A stretch of 32,621 nucleotides of DNA from Candidatus Coatesiibacteriota bacterium. Its GTDB lineage: Bacteria; RBG-13-66-14; B26-G2; WVWN01; G020348885. The notes beneath the pieces are model-generated. The model worked only from the letters and a program-made list of their open reading frames with translations, did no database searches and had not been told where the DNA came from. Numbering within the stretch: the stretch's first letter is position 1; the number at the start of each line of letters is the position of its first letter. Positions 3,468-11,012 of this stretch are shown one piece after another. The stretch covers positions 2,408,914-2,441,534 of the forward strand of contig CP070755.1 in the NCBI GenBank assembly GCA_020348885.1. Direction: 5' to 3'. The translations under genes and the position numbers were made by a program.

Positions 3468-4049
3468 TTATTCCGCGAATCCGGCTTTGACGCGGCCGAG
3501 GGAAGTCGGATCGACCGCTTCTCCGCCGTAGATTATGTCTTCGATAGCGTTGGTCAAACCGTTGAAATCGATGGCGTAGTCGTCCATCCATACGACTATC
3601 CCGTCGCGGTCCACGAGCGCGCATTGACCAAACCAGCTTGAGCCGGTCATCTTCCATTTTACGAAGTCCGGTTGCTCCGCGTCTAAAAAGTCGTGGTCGA
3701 GGACTTGGCCGTGGTACGTGTACTTCATCGTAGATTGTACGCTGGGAGGATCGTAGGCGTTCATAGATATTACTTCCAAACCAACTCCTACATCGTGATA
3801 GACATCATATACCTGAGTCTCTAATGCCAGACAATCCGTCCGGCAGGCGCCTCAAGACTGTTTCCAGTGGGATACAACGACTATCTTCCCGGCGTCCAAG
3901 TAGTCCTGGATATCCAACCAAGGGCCGTGGTAATCGGCGCTGTCGTCGATGGAATAATTAGCCAGTCCCGGTTGTTCGTCGCCTACGTCTAACGCGAACG
4001 CGTTTAAGGCGAACAACAACCCCGTAATAAATACCAATACCCAACGCAT
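3468..4049 (-). CDS. Secreted thioredoxin-fold selenoprotein candidate, U-x-x-C (paralogue 1)
   Basis: A single 193-residue reading frame interrupted once by UGA at 3852-3854 (codon 66). Reading UGA as selenocysteine gives strand KIVVVSHW, then Q-S-U-G-A-C, a redox U-x-x-C motif placed exactly where TlpA-like thioredoxins carry C-x-x-C. Downstream are the expected V-x-V-I-S strand, an FGQCALVDRDGIVVW strand pair (the 'TP.tflIDrdG' region of redoxins) and a C-terminal helix. Residues 1-20 are a signal peptide (MRWVLVFITGLLFALNAFA). AGGAGG precedes the ATG at 4049. The tail ends with the shared motif DPTSLGRVKAGFAE. TGA is a normal stop elsewhere in the window, for example at 14320, 17011 and 18510, which argues against a changed code. 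A hairpin lies just after the UGA. Sec incorporation is inferred; the selenium genes are not in this window. Confidence 0.82.
3814..3854 (-). promoter_or_regulatory. Candidate bacterial SECIS hairpin, selenoprotein 1
   Basis: Starting at the UGA, the mRNA can form a lower stem UGAG/CUCA (3851-3854 with 3814-3817). Above an internal loop sits an 8-bp upper stem, UGCCGGAC / GUCUGGCA (3838-3845 with 3825-3832), closed by the loop GGAUU. One pair is a G-U wobble that is a mismatch on the opposite strand, which points to the minus-strand RNA. The loop starts with G, as in known bacterial SECIS elements. The UGA-to-loop spacing of 14 nt is slightly shorter than the usual range. Confidence 0.6.
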
Positions 4050-4098
4050 ATTTACCTCCTATCGGTAAACTTGATTGGTGACCATAGGTATATATGAC
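4050..4098 (-). promoter_or_regulatory. Leader of selenoprotein gene 1, duplicated at 5484
   Basis: Immediately upstream of the ATG the minus strand reads GTTTACCGATAGGAGGTAAAT, with an optimal AGGAGG at 4055-4060. A TATATA-rich segment lies about 40 bases upstream. The same arrangement precedes the second selenoprotein gene, so the leader was copied with the gene. Confidence 0.6.
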
Positions 4099-4166
4099 TA
4101 TTCTCGTTATCTTTATACCACGTATTGCCCGCGTTTTCAAATGAAAAACCCGCCGTTTAAAGAGCG

Positions 4167-4186
4167 AAAGGGCCTTTCGGCCCTTT
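4167..4186 (-). terminator. Terminator-like hairpin of the second selenoprotein gene
   Basis: Identical AAAGGGCC-GAAA-GGCCCTTT stem-loop to that at 3411-3434, 35 bases past the stop of the upstream gene. The following U-tract is weak (CGCUCUUUAAA), so termination may be partial. Confidence 0.65.
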
Positions 4187-4220
4187 CCTGTTTCGTTCCG
4201 TCTCGTCGTTCCTCGTTTTG

Positions 4221-5483
4221 TTATTCCGTGAAACCGACCTTGATGGAGCCCAGGGACGCCGGTGTTATGTTCGTGTTGTAGTCGAAGGAGAACGAGAAAG
4301 TGTCTCTCGAGTCGAAGTCGTCGTCCGGCGCGTTACATATCACGTACCAGTAGTAGGTTATATCGTCGGTAACGTCGAAGGTGTGGGTGTATTCGATATC
4401 GGTAATGCCGGTTTCGTGGACTTCCGGCGAGCTGAAGTCGTCGTTGTCGTCCACGATGAGCTCGTACGAGTCGGCGCGGATGACCTCATCCCACTCGAAG
4501 GTTACGTCGTAGCCGGTACGCCCGCCGTCGGCGACGATAACCGGCTTGCTTCCCGTCGCCGCGCGTACGGTTTCTCCGGCGCCGCTTCTAGGCCCGGTTA
4601 CTTCGAAAACCTCGCCGTCGTCGGGTTCGTTCAGGTCAAACGACCGCGTCCAGAAACTGTATTCGTCCTCCATGTCGTGGCGCGCCAGGTCGCTCGCGGC
4701 GACGTACACGAAAACCTCGATGTAGTGCGGTAGCGGGTCGTCGGGGTTGAAGGAGTAACTCGTATCCAGGAAGTCGCCTGATAGGTTCAGGTCGCCTGGG
4801 ATGTCGCCTTTTACCAGCGTATAAACGTCCACTTCGATAGAATCTTCGTCGAGGCCGTAGTTGTCGTCTATTATGTGGCCCGATATGTTATAACTCAGGC
4901 TGACGTCGGTGTCGCCGTCTTCCGGGTTCATGTCTTCCAGGTACGGCGGGTCTTCGTCGCCGTAAATTACCGCATCAAAGGCGTCTTCGAATTCGGAATA
5001 CGTACCCCCGTAGCCCAGCTTACTCAGGTAGCAATACCCTGTCGGTCCGATGATGAACGTCTGGGGTACGCCGCTGCTGGTGGTTATCTTCCACGCGTTC
5101 CAGTCGCTAGTTTCTAGGTTAGTGAATAGAAAACGGACCGGGTTTCCGTCGAGCATGTTGAACTTCCAGTTACCGATAGCGGCCGCTGTATCCCAGCAGT
5201 CTACTTCGATAAACTCCACGCCCAGCGGGTAGTAATCGTAGTAAACGTAGTCCTCGATATCTTCGAGTTCATTATTGCAATAGGTTCAAGTATCGTAACC
5301 GAAGCTAACGAGGAAGGTCTTGTCGGCGGCGAGATAGTCGTCGACGTTGACGTACGCCCCAAGGCCGCCGCCGGCGGTAACTACCTCTGGCCGGTTCAAC
5401 GGTGGGCACTCTTCGCCCAACTCCAACGCGCCGGCGTAAACGAAGAAGCCTAACGCGATAACCGCTGCTAGAAATATCCGCAT
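4221..5483 (-). CDS. Secreted thioredoxin-fold selenoprotein candidate with Ig/FnIII-like domains (paralogue 2)
   Basis: One continuous frame of 420 residues with an internal UGA at 5286-5288, again codon 66. With UGA as Sec it reads FLVSFGYDT-U-TYC, a U-x-x-C motif after the core strand of a thioredoxin fold. Residues 1-20 are a signal peptide (MRIFLAAVIALGFFVYAGA). The fold continues with VEFIEVD, then GVPQTFIIGPTGYCY, which carries the Val-Pro cis-proline site of thioredoxins. From about residue 170 come a bacterial Ig-like domain (DMNPEDGDTDVSLSYNISG) and an FnIII-like domain (SYELIVDDNDDFSSPEV). The end is ITPASLGSIKVGFTE, the shared C-terminal motif. AGGAGG precedes the ATG at 5483. Without Sec the gene would be a 65-residue fragment plus an orphan frame lacking its active site. 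The substrate is unknown. Confidence 0.85.
5253..5288 (-). promoter_or_regulatory. Candidate bacterial SECIS hairpin, selenoprotein 2
   Basis: Downstream of the UGA a 5-bp stem, CUCGA / UCGAG (5263-5267 with 5253-5257), closes the loop AGAUA. The loop has G at its second position and lies 23 nt from the UGA. Both values fit the published description of bacterial SECIS elements as I remember it. The stem is short, so this call is weaker than that for selenoprotein 1. Confidence 0.45.
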
Positions 5484-5532
5484 ATCTACCTCCTATCGGT
5501 AAACCTGACTATTCGTTGTAGGTATATATAAC
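5484..5532 (-). promoter_or_regulatory. Leader of selenoprotein gene 2, duplicated at 4050
   Basis: AGGAGG at 5489-5494, preceded by GTTTACCGAT and an upstream TATATATA segment, nearly matching the leader of the neighbouring selenoprotein gene. The promoter itself is probably within 5520-5575, which is AT-rich; no clear -35 box is seen. Confidence 0.55.
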
Positions 5533-5641
5533 TATTTTACTAAAGTATATATAGCATCATACAGCGGTTTGTGCAAGGGAAAAACGAAAGGTAGCGCCGT
5601 TTTATCGTTACACTGCCGTTCCCGACGCTATATAACATTGA

Positions 5642-6400
5642 TTAACTCGGTTTCCTCGGCTCCCCCTGCGGCTCCTCGTCCGATATCGGCGGGACCTTCG
5701 GCCAGAAACCGAGGAGTTTTGCGAGGCGCCGGCGGAACAGGAAAATAAAGTTCTTCGTTCCGTCGCGCCAGAGGCTCAGTTTCGATTCACCCTTCCGTTT
5801 GACGTAGTGAAAATCGATGGGTACTTCCCGGCCCTTGATTTCTCGGCGCTTCTCGAAGACCTCCAGCTTCAGCTCCTCGGAGAAGGGCATCCCGTCGCTG
5901 GTAACGTTCACCTTTTCGAGGACATCCCGGCGGAAGCACCACATCCCGGACTGGCTGTCGTGGATATGCCGGAAGTAGAGGAGCAGTATCGCGAAGTTGA
6001 AAACCTTGTTGCCGAACCACCGGAGGAAGTAGTCGAAGCTCTCCTGCCAGTCGGCGGCGATGCGCCAGGCGCTCACGAACTCCAGGTCGTCCCGGTCGAG
6101 TATGTCGATGAGGTAGGGGATCGCGACGACCGGGTACGTGCCGTCGCCGTCCAGCGTACAGACGACGTCGCCGGCGGCCTGGCTCAGGCCCGATTTGTAC
6201 GCGCGGCCGTAGCCGGGTCGTTCCTCGAAAACGACGCGGGCGCCCATCCGCCGGGCGACGTCGCCGGTGGCGTCGCTGGAGTTGTTGTCCACGACTATGA
6301 CCTCGTCGACGAAGTCCGGCATCGCGGCCAGGCAGTCGGCGACGCCCTCCTCCTCGTTGTAGCAGGGCATCACCACCGTTATCTTGTACCCGCGGCGCAT
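5642..6400 (-). CDS. GT2 glycosyltransferase, dolichyl/polyprenyl-phosphate mannose synthase-like
   Basis: A 252-residue family 2 glycosyltransferase. The N-terminal nucleotide-binding strand reads VVMPCYNEEEGV, followed by VIVVDNNSSDATGD and the DXD-type motif TLDGDGTYP around residue 85. It transfers a sugar from a nucleotide donor, most likely to a polyprenyl phosphate or a cell-surface glycan precursor, at the cytoplasmic face of the membrane. Segment FDYFLRWFGNKVFNFAILLLYF is a membrane-associated hydrophobic stretch, and DGMPFSEELKLEV holds the acceptor-side acidic residues of the DPM1-like group. No C-terminal flippase domain is fused. The start ATG at 6400 lacks a clear ribosome binding site but lies directly before the fold. 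It is isolated from other glycan genes here. Confidence 0.9.
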   Translation of the reverse strand: MRRGYKITVVMPCYNEEEGVADCLAAMPDFVDEVIVVDNNSSDATGDVARRMGARVVFEERPGYGRAYKSGLSQAAGDVVCTLDGDGTYPVVAIPYLIDILDRDDLEFVSAWRIAADWQESFDYFLRWFGNKVFNFAILLLYFRHIHDSQSGMWCFRRDVLEKVNVTSDGMPFSEELKLEVFEKRREIKGREVPIDFHYVKRKGESKLSLWRDGTKNFIFLFRRRLAKLLGFWPKVPPISDEEPQGEPRKPS

Positions 6401-6555
6401 GGCGGCGTGTATTTTCGATTATATTGGTCCGAAAAGCAAGGAGAAAAAGCCGTCGGCGTTTTATTAACGAGGCCGTTTTCGGGCGTTTTTAGCGGGAATT
6501 CCTTGAAAAACGGCGGGATATATGATGGTTTGACTGAATATGAAGTTATTTTTTA

Positions 6556-6585
6556 TTGGCAAATACCTCGTCAGTATGCTATATA
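6556..6585 (+). promoter_or_regulatory. Sigma-70-like promoter of the first propeller gene
   Basis: TTGGCA (6556-6561), an 18-base spacer and TATATA (6580-6585), about 80 bases before the ATG at 6665. The region 6480-6610 is AT-rich compared with the coding DNA on each side. Confidence 0.55.
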
Positions 6586-6664
6586 TATAGTGGTTCAGGA
6601 ATAGTACAAAATATCGTCTTATTGTAGGTCTGTTGAGTTTGTTAACCCACGAGGAGGGCGAACT

Positions 6665-7498
6665 ATGAGGAACATGTATGTGATTTCGGCCTTCGCTTTG
6701 ATACCTGTATTCGCACTTGGATATGCGGCGGACGACGGTACTTCGGCCCCGGCCCGCGATCGGGTTTTCGACATTACAATCATAAACACGTTCCAGTGTC
6801 CTTACGCGACCGAGATTATGGGACTCGATTACGTCGACGGTGAGAACGCGTTGACCTTCGCCAGTAACCTGGACGACGCGTTGTATACTTGCAATGCAAA
6901 CAACGGAACCTATATCAGCGCTCTTACGTTAAATTACACCGGTAACGCCCACCCGTTCGGCGTTTGTTACGACGGCAACGGATACCCGCATGTCAACGAA
7001 TTTTCCGGCCAGAAGGTATACTGGACCGACTACGCGGAGTGGGATTACTATCCCAACCCTGCGGGGAACAAAGGTAGCGGCATGGACTTCGACGGGACCT
7101 TCATCTGGGAGACCTACTCGACCGAGGGCGTTTACCGCTTCTTGCCCGGCGGCACCAACGAAGAGTACTACCCGGCAAACGACGTTGGGGCACAGATGAG
7201 CGGCCTGGCCGTGTTCCCCTTTAACGGCAATACCTGGTTGATGCTTTCGACCCACGGCGTGTATTTGTTCTATTTCTACGAGTTCGACGGTTCCACCTTG
7301 ACGTATATAGGCGCCGACGACTGCCCGCTTGAGCTGGACCAGTCCTACGGGCTGACTTATGCGGCCGAGCGGGGTACCTTCTTCTGGAGCTACACCATAG
7401 GCGAAGAAGAATGGGTCGCCGAACTTGACTTAGGCCTCGACGACGATTCGGCCGTAATCCCGATGAGCGTGGGCGTCATAAAGGCGGCGTACAGGTAG
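6665..7498 (+). CDS. Secreted beta-propeller-like protein, block order Y-X (paralogue 1)
   Basis: 277 residues; GAGGAGGG precedes the ATG and residues 1-21 form a signal peptide (MRNMYVISAFALIPVFALGY). Two blocks follow. Block Y (about 37-188) runs from ITIINTFQCPYA to MSGLAVF and holds the conserved segments LDYVDGENA, HPFGVCYDGNGYPHVNEF and NKGSGMDF. Block X (about 190-260) runs from TWLMLSTHG through YEFDGSTLTYI and DQSYGLTY to AELDL. The two genes downstream carry the same blocks in the order X-Y, so this copy is a circular permutant. The blade-like repeats (SGL.VF, GLTY, GLDYV) suggest a propeller closed head to tail, which tolerates permutation. It ends IPMSVGVIKAAYR, the shared C-terminal motif. 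I recognise no named family or catalytic site; a surface or secreted binding protein is inferred. Confidence 0.8.
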   Translation: MRNMYVISAFALIPVFALGYAADDGTSAPARDRVFDITIINTFQCPYATEIMGLDYVDGENALTFASNLDDALYTCNANNGTYISALTLNYTGNAHPFGVCYDGNGYPHVNEFSGQKVYWTDYAEWDYYPNPAGNKGSGMDFDGTFIWETYSTEGVYRFLPGGTNEEYYPANDVGAQMSGLAVFPFNGNTWLMLSTHGVYLFYFYEFDGSTLTYIGADDCPLELDQSYGLTYAAERGTFFWSYTIGEEEWVAELDLGLDDDSAVIPMSVGVIKAAYR

Positions 7499-7524
7499 GC
7501 ACTCGAGTCCAAACGGAACCCTAC

Positions 7525-7556
7525 GGGTGGCGATATGTCGCCACCCGGTTTTTATT
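7525..7556 (+). terminator. Intrinsic terminator after propeller paralogue 1
   Basis: A 9-bp perfect stem, GGGTGGCGA / TCGCCACCC, with TATG loop (7525-7546), followed by GG and TTTTTATT. Closely related hairpins end the next two genes. Confidence 0.92.
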
Positions 7557-7626
7557 CCAAACGGTAGAAAAACGCGTCTCCGGCGGGTAAGTTAACGCGT
7601 TCGGCCGTGACTATAGCCGACGGTGT
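7552..7626 (-). pseudogene. Decayed 3' end of a PQQ-type propeller gene (copy A)
   Basis: Read on the minus strand, this stretch gives TPSAIVTAERVNLPAGDAFF then YRLE and a stop. That aligns with the C-terminus of the intact PQQ-propeller protein at 11263 (TPVVSGGRVYFGSEDGLFYCLE-stop). Homology fades upstream and there is no start. It looks like the last piece of a gene that once ran convergently toward the plus-strand propeller gene. Confidence 0.6.
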
Positions 7627-7673
7627 CGTAAGCTCAAACGAGCGTTTTTGACGGTATTTGAGGCGTTATTATC

Positions 7674-7702
7674 TTTCGCGCGTTCGGGGCGATATGTATA
7701 AT
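7674..7702 (+). promoter_or_regulatory. Probable promoter of propeller paralogue 2
   Basis: A consensus -10 TATAAT at 7697-7702 with a weak -35 (TTTCGC, 7674-7679) at 17 bases. The equivalent position upstream of the duplicated gene also carries TATAAT, so the element is conserved between copies. The leader of about 80 bases is also conserved. Confidence 0.6.
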
Positions 7703-7788
7703 AACGCCCGATTTGACTAAGAGGTAGCGTGTCGGGGCAATTAAGACCGGCGCGTGAGATGGAGTATGCTAACAATGAGAGGAGAAGT

Positions 7789-8589
7789 ATGAGGTATTTA
7801 ATCGTTATTCTGGTTATGGCGTCTCTACCGGCGTGCGCGTTCGGTGACGATAACCTCTGGCTTATGAACGCGAGCCACGGAGAGTACGTATTCAACTTCT
7901 ACGAGTTTGACGGTTCGACTCTGACGTATATAGATACCGTCGATTGCCCGCTGACGCCGTCGCAGTCCTACGGGCTGGCGTACTCGGTAGACCGCGATAC
8001 CGTCTTCTGGAGCTACGCTATAGGGAGCGACGATTCGATAAGCGAGCTCGATATCGACTTCGGTACGGACATCACCATCACCGTCGTCAACACGTTCGAA
8101 TGCCCGTACGCGGGGGAAATCCGCGGCCTCGACTTCGTCGACGGCGAGAACGCCATATCGTTTACCAGCGACCCGGATAATATGATATATACCTGCAACG
8201 CCGACGACGGGACGTACGTAAGCGAGTTGGCTTTGGGGTTCAGCAATCCCCATCCGTTTGGCGTTTGCTACGATAATAACGGCTATCCCCACTTGAACGA
8301 GTTTAACGGTAGCGATATTTTCTGGTACAACGGCGTTGACTGGAACGAATACGCGAACCCGTCGTCCAACAAAGGCAGCGGTATGGACTTCTACGGCGGC
8401 TACGTCTGGGAAACCTACTGGACCGATGGAGTGTACCGCTTCCTCCCCGACGGGACCGGCACCGAATTCTACGAAACGCCCGAGGTGGGAGCGCAGCTGA
8501 GCGGGCTCACCGTGTTCCTGAAAAGCGGCGGCGGCGACACCGGCGTCGAACCTGCGAGCATGGGTACTATCAAAGCGACGTACAGGTAG
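7789..8589 (+). CDS. Secreted beta-propeller-like protein, block order X-Y (paralogue 2)
   Basis: 266 residues from the ATG at 7789, chosen because GAGAGGAG lies just upstream and a signal peptide starts there (MRYLIVILVMASLPACAFG). An in-frame upstream start at 7729 would bury the signal. Block X (LWLMNASHG ... SELDID) comes first, then block Y (ITITVVNTFECPYA ... LSGLTVF), the reverse of the order in the gene at 6665. Conserved segments include YEFDGSTLTYI, QSYGLAY, FVDGENAISF, HPFGVCYDNNGYPHLNEF and NKGSGMDF. A short Gly-rich linker leads to the shared C-terminal motif VEPASMGTIKATYR. The protein is very similar to the gene at 8883, with which it shares leader and terminator, marking a recent tandem duplication. 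Function is unknown; extracellular or surface location is inferred. Confidence 0.8.
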   Translation: MRYLIVILVMASLPACAFGDDNLWLMNASHGEYVFNFYEFDGSTLTYIDTVDCPLTPSQSYGLAYSVDRDTVFWSYAIGSDDSISELDIDFGTDITITVVNTFECPYAGEIRGLDFVDGENAISFTSDPDNMIYTCNADDGTYVSELALGFSNPHPFGVCYDNNGYPHLNEFNGSDIFWYNGVDWNEYANPSSNKGSGMDFYGGYVWETYWTDGVYRFLPDGTGTEFYETPEVGAQLSGLTVFLKSGGGDTGVEPASMGTIKATYR

Positions 8590-8615
8590 GCACTCGAACG
8601 GAAGCGGAATAATAC

Positions 8616-8637
8616 GGGCGGCGACGAATCGCCGCCC
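8616..8637 (+). terminator. Terminator hairpin after propeller paralogue 2
   Basis: A 9-bp stem, GGGCGGCGA / TCGCCGCCC, with CGAA loop, followed by GGTATTCTATT. The T-tract is interrupted but the hairpin is strong. Confidence 0.75.
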
Positions 8638-8643
8638 GGTATT

Positions 8644-8715
8644 CTATTCCAAACAGTAGAAAAACCCGTCTTCGGCGTGTGAGTAAACGCGTCGGTCCGC
8701 GACTATAGCCGACGG
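8644..8715 (-). pseudogene. Decayed 3' end of a PQQ-type propeller gene (copy B)
   Basis: Minus-strand reading gives PSAIVADRRVYSHAEDGFFY then CLE and a stop. The last seven codons nearly match the end of the intact protein at 11263 (EDGLFYCLE-stop), and RVY precedes both. It is better preserved than copy A at 7552; both lie at the same place in the duplicated unit, so one was copied from the other. No start or upstream body remains. Confidence 0.65.
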
Positions 8716-8767
8716 TGCCGCAAGCCCAAACGAGGGTTTTTGACGGCATTTGAAATGTTATTTTCGT

Positions 8768-8796
8768 TTGCCCACTCGCCGTAATAGTAGTATAAT
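8768..8796 (+). promoter_or_regulatory. Sigma-70-like promoter of propeller paralogue 3
   Basis: TTGCCC (8768-8773), a 17-base spacer and TATAAT (8791-8796), 86 bases before the ATG at 8883. It is the counterpart of 7674-7702. Confidence 0.65.
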
Positions 8797-8882
8797 AGCG
8801 CCGGATTTGATTAAAAAGTGACGGGTCGGGGTAGTTAAGACCCGCAGGTGAGATGAGCTGTACTAACAATGAGAGGAGAAGT

Positions 8883-9686
8883 ATGAGGTATGTAGTCATT
8901 ATTTTGGTTATGGCGTCTCTGCCGGTTTGCGCGTTCGGTGACGGTGAAACCTGGTTTATGAACACGAACCACGGCGAACCGTTCAGCTTTTACTTTTACG
9001 AGTTCGACGGCTCGAGTTTGACGTATGTAGATACCGTCGATTGCCCCGACTTGGGGGTGAATCAATCCTACGGGCTGACGTACTCGGAAGAGCGGGACAC
9101 GGTCTTCTGGAGTTACGCTACCGGGAGTGCCGACTCAATAAGCGAGCTCGATATCGACTTCGGTACGGAAATTACCATCACGGTACTCAACTCGTTCGAA
9201 TGTCCGTACGCGGGGGAAATCCGCGGCCTCGACTTCGTTGACGGCGAGAACGCCATATCTTTTACCAGCGACCCGGATAACATGATATACACCTGCAGCG
9301 CCGACGACGGAACTTACGTAAGCGAGCTACCCATGGGTTTCAGCAATCCCCATCCGTTCGGCATCTGTTACGACGACAACGGGTATCCCCACTTGAACGA
9401 GTATAACGGCGGGTATATCTACTGGTACGACGGCGCCGATTGGAACGAATATGTGAACCCGTCGTCCAACAAAGGCAGCGGTATGGACTTCTACGACGGC
9501 TACGTCTGGGAAACCTACTGGACCGACGGCGCGTACCGTTTCCTCCCCGACGGGACCGGCGCCGTGCTCTATGAAACGCCCGAGGTGGAAGCGCAACTGA
9601 GCGGCCTTACCGTGTTTACGCAAAGCGGCGGCGACACCGTTATCGAACCTACTAGTATGGGTACGATCAAAGCGACGTACAGGTAG
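8883..9686 (+). CDS. Secreted beta-propeller-like protein, block order X-Y (paralogue 3)
   Basis: 267 residues from the ATG at 8883, with GAGAGGAG upstream and the signal peptide MRYVVIILVMASLPVCAFG. It has the same block order X-Y as the gene at 7789 and differs from it mainly by substitutions: TWFMNTNHG against LWLMNASHG at the start of X, and EYNGGYIYWYDGADW against EFNGSDIFWYNGVDW in Y. It ends IEPTSMGTIKATYR. The retention of every conserved aromatic and Asp/Gly turn suggests that both copies are functional. Its terminator is the strongest of the three. No known family or enzyme motif is recognised; like its neighbours it is probably an exported propeller carrying the shared C-terminal sorting-like motif. 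Confidence 0.8.
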   Translation: MRYVVIILVMASLPVCAFGDGETWFMNTNHGEPFSFYFYEFDGSSLTYVDTVDCPDLGVNQSYGLTYSEERDTVFWSYATGSADSISELDIDFGTEITITVLNSFECPYAGEIRGLDFVDGENAISFTSDPDNMIYTCSADDGTYVSELPMGFSNPHPFGICYDDNGYPHLNEYNGGYIYWYDGADWNEYVNPSSNKGSGMDFYDGYVWETYWTDGAYRFLPDGTGAVLYETPEVEAQLSGLTVFTQSGGDTVIEPTSMGTIKATYR

Positions 9687-10016: not shown

Positions 10017-11012
10017 ATGAACGCGGGAAAAGTCCTCACCGTATTGGTTTCTCTAATGGTTTTAGCGGTTATGGTCTGTTGCGACGGCGGGACCGGGCCA
10101 TCCGATAACGCGCCGACCAATCCCAACCCGGCGAACGGCGCTACCGAGGTTGATATAAACCAGGATCTTTCGTGGTCCTGTTCGGACCCGGACGGCGGCC
10201 CGTTAACCTACTATATTTGCTTCGGGACTTCTAGTGATCCGCCGCTCGTTGAAAGCGGGTACAACTCGACCGGTTACGATCCGGGGGCGATGGACTATGG
10301 GACTAAGTATTATTGGGAGATCCATGCCGAGGACGCCCGCGGGAACCGGACGACCGGTCCGGTTTGGCACTTTACGACGGAAAGTGAACCCGGCCCGTTC
10401 CTGTGGAACGCGGATTGGATCACGGAAAAAATATACAAGATAAATCCCGACACGGGGGCCGTAGTAAGTTCGTTTAATGCGCCGGGATCCTGGCCAACCG
10501 GCCTTACCTTGGTCGGCACTTACCTGTGGAACGCCGACTGGGGTGAAGGTAAAATATACCAGATAAACCCCAACACGGGGGCCGTAGTTAGGTCCTTTGA
10601 TTCGCCCGGGGTTTTACCAATAGGCCTTGCCTGGGATGGCGCCTGCCTCTGGAACGTGGACCGCGAGCGGGACGAAATAAATAAGATAGACCCCAAAACC
10701 GGGCTCGTAATAAACTCGTTTAATTCGCCGGGACCCAGTCCGGATGGCCTTGTTTGGGACGGGACCTACCTCTGGAACTCGGACTGGGGTACGGAGGAAA
10801 TATACAAGATAGATCCCGATACCGGGACTGTAGTGGAGTTCTTTGATTCGCCGGAAGTCTGGCCAGCGGGCCTTGCCTGGGACGGTGGCTACCTGTGGAA
10901 CGCGGACTCCTGGAACGGAAGAATATACAGGGTAGACCCCGACACCGGCGCCGTAATAACCTCGTTCGATTCGCCGGGGTCCTATCCTACGGGTTTAACG
11001 TGGCAACCGTAG
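10017..11012 (+). CDS. Secreted Ig/FnIII-like protein with five 41-residue propeller repeats
   Basis: 331 residues. The signal ends in LAVMVCCDGG, probably a lipoprotein cleavage site with a non-standard box. Residues about 28-122 are a bacterial Ig/FnIII-like domain (NPNPANGATEVDINQDLSWS ... YYWEIHAEDARGN ... WHFTTE). Residues about 127-331 are five tandem repeats of about 41 residues with the pattern LWN-x-D-W-x(3)-IYKI-[ND]-P-[DN]-TG-x-VV-x-SF-[DN]-[SA]-PG-x-x-P-x-GL-x-W-[DV]-G. Each repeat would be one propeller blade; such repeats occur in secreted binding proteins of many bacteria. The TTG-like context is not needed because the ATG at 10017 starts the signal directly. It has two promoters, and a hairpin follows at 11050. 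It lacks the P-x-S-x-G-x-I-K tail found on its upstream neighbours. The ligand is unknown. Confidence 0.82.
   Translation: MNAGKVLTVLVSLMVLAVMVCCDGGTGPSDNAPTNPNPANGATEVDINQDLSWSCSDPDGGPLTYYICFGTSSDPPLVESGYNSTGYDPGAMDYGTKYYWEIHAEDARGNRTTGPVWHFTTESEPGPFLWNADWITEKIYKINPDTGAVVSSFNAPGSWPTGLTLVGTYLWNADWGEGKIYQINPNTGAVVRSFDSPGVLPIGLAWDGACLWNVDRERDEINKIDPKTGLVINSFNSPGPSPDGLVWDGTYLWNSDWGTEEIYKIDPDTGTVVEFFDSPEVWPAGLAWDGGYLWNADSWNGRIYRVDPDTGAVITSFDSPGSYPTGLTWQP

Follow-up and report, generated by a model that had tools for sequence, protein, structure and literature searches.

Introduction

Why should secreted proteins of unrelated fold end in the same few residues? The question is raised by a window of 32,621 nucleotides (the whole stretch of DNA that was analysed; contig CP070755.1, positions 2,408,914 to 2,441,534) from a Candidatus Coatesiibacteriota bacterium, in which two thioredoxin-like and three propeller-like proteins share a C-terminal tail. 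The host genome, G000 of the phylum Coatesbacteria, is a single contig of 2,599,261 bases that includes the window. The tail is best read as a sorting-type C-terminal signal and is probably a short, transferable signal of the type IX secretion system (T9SS), about 10-14 residues long and of an undescribed class. The genes and their tails are as follows.

3468..4049, minus strand: thioredoxin-like protein 1, running from signal peptide to tail across an in-frame TGA (codon 66, UGAC context)
3471..3512, minus strand: its tail, DPTSLGRVKAGFAE
4221..5483, minus strand: thioredoxin-like protein 2, with additional C-terminal domains and its in-frame TGA likewise at codon 66 (UTYC context)
4224..4265, minus strand: its tail, TPASLGSIKVGFTE
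6665..7498, plus strand: propeller-like protein 1, with signal peptide and tail
7457..7495, plus strand: its tail, IPMSVGVIKAAYR
7729..8589, plus strand: propeller-like protein 2, a circular permutant of propeller-like protein 1
8548..8586, plus strand: its tail, EPASMGTIKATYR
8853..9686, plus strand: propeller-like protein 3, a circular permutant of propeller-like protein 1
9645..9683, plus strand: its tail, EPTSMGTIKATYR

All five tails are present in the window exactly as an earlier, sequence-only reading had quoted them. That reading also gave all five proteins signal peptides, which holds plainly for the three propellers but for the two thioredoxin-like proteins only through readthrough of the TGA codon, the one route by which signal peptide and tail fall in a single frame.

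A detachable end on many exported proteins

Searching the DNA of G000 with the pattern G-x-[IV]-K-[AV]-x-[FY]-x-stop gave 62 matches against 0 for a control pattern read backwards, and a looser pattern without the [AV] constraint gave 80 against 3. Once four short chance open reading frames (ORFs) and a single broken, unreadably short copy were removed, 75 usable tails remained, and these agree at positions that the search had not fixed: counted back from the last residue (-1), 74 of the 75 have S at -10 and as many a hydrophobic residue at -9, with I or V at -14 in 71, A, T or S at -11 in 65 and P at -12 in 58. An aromatic residue stands at -2 and the last residue is mostly basic, while the core can be generalised to S-x-G-x-[IV]-K-A.

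The sharing of the motif by unrelated folds, first remarked on five proteins, extends to 26 families without mutual BLAST similarity at 1e-4 among the 71 tail proteins of at least 80 residues, some of these families being large paralog sets (15, 10 and 9 members). Within the fetched stretches a crude signal peptide was found in 58 of 69 tail ORFs compared with 127 of 313 other ORFs, and several of the misses among the tail ORFs are masked starts or in-frame TGA codons; the associated Fisher value (3e-11) is optimistic, because paralogs are not independent. The outcome set beforehand as refuting, a lack of enrichment at the C-termini of exported proteins, is clearly not what is seen. Only two of the 58 ORFs with signal peptides are lipoprotein-like, and the tail proteins mostly measure 190-470 residues. 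One locus (L049, G000:C1:1079355-1094927) holds a row of related tail proteins in which two tail ends lie shortly after a stop codon, which suggests broken copies.

Permutation separates the tail from the domain that carries it. When the window propellers are aligned with homologs from the genomes G005 and G012, the N-terminal segment of 7729-8589 and of 8853-9686 corresponds to the segment that precedes the tail in 6665-7498 and in the G005 and G012 homologs, and the tail is nevertheless C-terminal in all seven proteins. The earlier observation that a permuted propeller kept the motif at its end is borne out by the alignment, with two of the three window propellers permuted. An AlphaFold model of a permuted propeller (mean pLDDT, the predicted local distance difference test, 47.7) was set aside as evidence for either the fold or the state of the tail. 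The model of a ThuA-like tail protein has a folded body (mean pLDDT 79.8), with ThuA-like proteins among its nearest solved folds, and a tail (residues 270-285) whose pLDDT lies below 50, so that the tail is predicted to be a flexible peptide outside the folded domain; its residues G278 and K281 are invariant in 14 aligned ThuA-like proteins. Neither Pfam nor NCBIfam offered a model covering the tail in the proteins scanned, NCBIfam gave no C-terminal match in 20 tail proteins (E<=0.1 in one scan, E<=1 in another), and a profile search with query A3 against the Protein Data Bank returned no match.

Distribution and co-occurrence with type IX secretion

In a comparison of 41 genomes, members of the same order have 89-143 matches to the strict pattern, those of the same class 13-18 and the remainder of the phylum 1-14; G038, from another phylum, has 13. 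A wider survey of 386 genomes used the pattern S-x-G-x-[IV]-K-x-x-[FY]-x-stop, with ten or more matches defining a tail-rich genome; 28 genomes spread over 14 family labels qualified, the weakest being G203 with 12 matches and 4 in the control. Outside Coatesbacteria the glycine of the tail is mostly preceded by W, and 23 proteins from five genomes (G079, G147, G284, G220 and G350), 20 of them with a crude signal peptide, give the form [ST]-[WF]-G-x-[IV]-K-x-x-[FY]-[RK], which can be summarised as [ST]-W-G-x-[IV]-K-x-L-[FY]-[RK]. The L and W forms are one motif, since Coatesbacteria orthologs bridge the two. The search pattern undercounts certain Coatesbacteria families because the end that follows their core is shorter or longer than the pattern allows. 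One family from this phylum (L144, L145 and L146) ends in IKAREW instead of IKAxFR.

The sequence-only reading had proposed looking for a co-occurring transpeptidase or secretion gene, and in the survey the tail-rich genomes share a secretion system. SprA, the T9SS channel, was found (E<=0.001) in 159 of the 386 genomes and in 28 of the 28 that are tail-rich, while none of the 227 SprA-negative genomes reached ten tails, the maximum being 7. G000 itself encodes SprA (C1:1411103-1414729), PorU (756737-760084) with PorV directly after it, 13 matches to the PorV family and 67 to the canonical type A sorting domain. The PorV family was present in all 34 genomes tested, including every tail-rich one, whereas PorP/SprF, the type B shuttle, was strong only in the comparison genomes G216 and G346 (E<1e-29). 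The PorV family is expanded, with 6-19 matches in tail-rich genomes and 3-4 in G216 and G346; these two are also the genomes with the best SprA match to the model.

Exchange of the tail for a type A sorting domain

Homologs of 11 tail proteins were sought in 30 genomes with the protein bodies alone, free of signal peptide and tail, and were read in fetched loci only, with duplicates and ORFs cut by the end of a locus removed. Within the phylum, 37 of 39 homologous ORFs carry the tail and the other two resemble frame or broken-ORF fragments; the basic residue of these 37 tails is K in 36 and R in one, the recognition rule itself having required K or R. In other phyla, 14 of 16 homologs, belonging to four tail families, end in a type A sorting domain, and one of the two exceptions, frame-broken, continues into such a domain in another frame. 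Since homologs swap them, tail and type A domain share one slot on related proteins. In G000 the tail is also found on choice_anch_V and choice_anch_J domains, and G079 has it on a choice_anch_X domain; NCBI gives such names to domains whose anchor at the C-terminus is of an alternative kind.

A proposed minimal type IX signal and its alternatives

Where the earlier reading had spoken of a sorting, anchoring or processing signal, the C-terminal enrichment and the co-occurrence with T9SS lend their support to the sorting part. We infer that the tail proteins depend on T9SS, and propose a signal class with the core [ST]-[LWFIMV]-G-x-[IV]-[KR]-[AS]. Secretion by type A signals depends on their final 13 residues and on the lysines of motif E, and the final 22 residues of HBP35 are enough to have green fluorescent protein secreted (PMC10202324); the near-invariant C-terminal lysine of such signals hydrogen-bonds PorV in the translocon (PMC10994853). 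It is because type A signals need these C-terminal residues, and a lysine that contacts PorV, that a minimal signal read by PorV-family shuttles is proposed here. Cargo would cross the inner membrane by Sec, using its predicted signal peptide, with the tail predicted to hang as a flexible peptide past the folded domain; in the periplasm PorV or one of its many paralogs would recognise the tail at the SprA channel, in the way in which type A domains are recognised by their last strand and near-invariant lysine, after which the cargo would pass through SprA to the cell surface, where PorU might cleave the tail and link the protein to a surface glycan. A literature search, whose coverage excluded preprints and most subscription journals, found no description of the tail.

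Several observations weigh against this proposal. Of the 159 SprA-positive genomes, 131 stay below ten tails, which shows that the channel alone does not suffice, and the number of PorV matches fails to separate tail-rich from tail-poor genomes (18 in G014, 11 in G020, 13 in G022). SprA and tails are shared by descent in related lineages, which confounds their co-occurrence. Remote similarity (E 1e-5 to 1e-25) underlies part of the exchange, and homologs with a type A domain are often larger multidomain proteins. No homology between the tail and TIGR04183 was detectable. The hydrophobic moment of the tail favours strand periodicity, while low-confidence models show a short helix, and the presence of a second signal beside 67 canonical sorting domains in G000 lacks an explanation.

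A rival reading assigns the tail to a separate sorting or anchoring system that has a receptor or transpeptidase of its own and is found together with T9SS in the superphylum without being part of it. In its favour, homology to TIGR04183 is absent, T9SS presence does not predict tails, and no tail protein read also carries a type A domain. In its fullest form this would be an autonomous ten-residue code with its own outer-membrane receptor alongside T9SS, marking from 10 to more than 100 proteins per genome and spanning 14 family-level lineages in more than one phylum. We consider both the general and the fuller version unlikely, given that SprA strictly accompanies the tail across 14 family labels and that homologs replace the tail by type A domains. 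A transpeptidase specific to the tail was not identified, and no search was aimed at sortase or exosortase families. A docking peptide that binds a surface or periplasmic scaffold and plays no part in crossing the outer membrane would suit a short linear motif at an exposed end, carried on a flexible linker by many small-domain cargos, but it is still harder to credit, as the tail is conserved across phyla on different cargo and a secretion domain substitutes for it in homologs.

The alternating hydrophobic residues and the aromatic residue near the end recall the outer-membrane beta-signal read by the beta-barrel assembly machinery (BAM) complex. The register is wrong for such a signal, since the aromatic residue stands at -2 with a basic residue last, where the PorV of G000 ends in SVGF, and the cargos resemble soluble folds (thioredoxin-like, SGNH, ThuA-like and propeller); we reject a variant BAM signal as very improbable. 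That the tail is merely the inherited end of a domain, or a product of chance, has in its favour only the large paralog sets, and is refuted to the point of near impossibility by the 26 families, the empty control and the survival of the tail through circular permutation.

If the proposal of a minimal type IX signal is right, uncultured phyla gain many proteins of unplaced location in their predicted surface and secreted proteomes, the T9SS signal shrinks from a domain of 70 residues to about ten, and the question of which part of the signal PorV reads becomes directly testable. A tag of such shortness could also serve for secretion tagging.

Other features of the window

Both thioredoxin-like proteins match known families weakly (AhpC-TSA/Redoxin for the first, AhpC-TSA for the second). 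Their in-frame TGA opens a UxxC redox motif, as the contexts U-G-A-C and U-T-Y-C suggest, and the two genes probably encode selenoproteins with selenocysteine at codon 66. A selenocysteine tRNA scores above the cut-off in 11 of 13 same-phylum relatives; the best score in the window's own assembly is 46.7 bits, below the cut-off of 47. The RNA folds 3' of the TGA are weak in both genes (z -1.5 and -1.05). Adjacent to the propeller genes, 10017-11012 (plus strand) encodes a further propeller protein, SGL/DUF6923-like, with a lipobox-like start (VMVCCDGG) and without a tail; a similar fold may here take another route.

Comparison with known systems

The PEP-CTERM, MYXO-CTERM and LPXTG tags resemble the tail in being short C-terminal sorting tags, and MYXO-CTERM is found on a relative of the choice_anch_V domain. 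Those tags consist of a transmembrane helix and a basic tail, whereas inspection found no hydrophobic stretch upstream of the tails studied here, and an anchor of the LPXTG or PEP-CTERM type is ruled out on that ground. T9SS type B and type C C-terminal domains (CTDs) are likewise alternative T9SS signals, but they are about 100 residues long. Type B uses other shuttles, PorP/SprF (PMC12618676), and with these essentially absent from tail-rich genomes a type B signal is ruled out as well.

A closer parallel is offered by the short CTDs of Prevotella intermedia, a shortened T9SS signal that exists beside long CTDs in one species. According to PMC11969387 they comprise 40-55 residues that form three strands and bear motifs B, D and E; the tail reaches at most about a third of that length and has its own core, S-[LW]-G-x-I-K.

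The likeness to type IX tails, put forward at first as one of concept, proves closer than claimed, for G000 has SprA, PorU, the PorV family and type A domains, and homologs swap one ending for the other. Type A CTDs (TIGR04183, PF18962) are about 70 residues long, with an immunoglobulin-like fold and motifs A-E, and type A proteins in the sample, which reach about 950 residues, mostly exceed the tail proteins in length, while the tail has 10-14 residues, no fold and no hidden Markov model match; motif D (G-x-Y, upstream of motif E) is present in the CTD proteins of G000 and absent from the tails. Tail and type A domain are nonetheless alike in being C-terminal on Sec-exported cargo, in accompanying SprA, PorV and PorU, in occupying the same place on homologous domains, and in conserving near the C-terminus a basic residue of the kind found in motif E.

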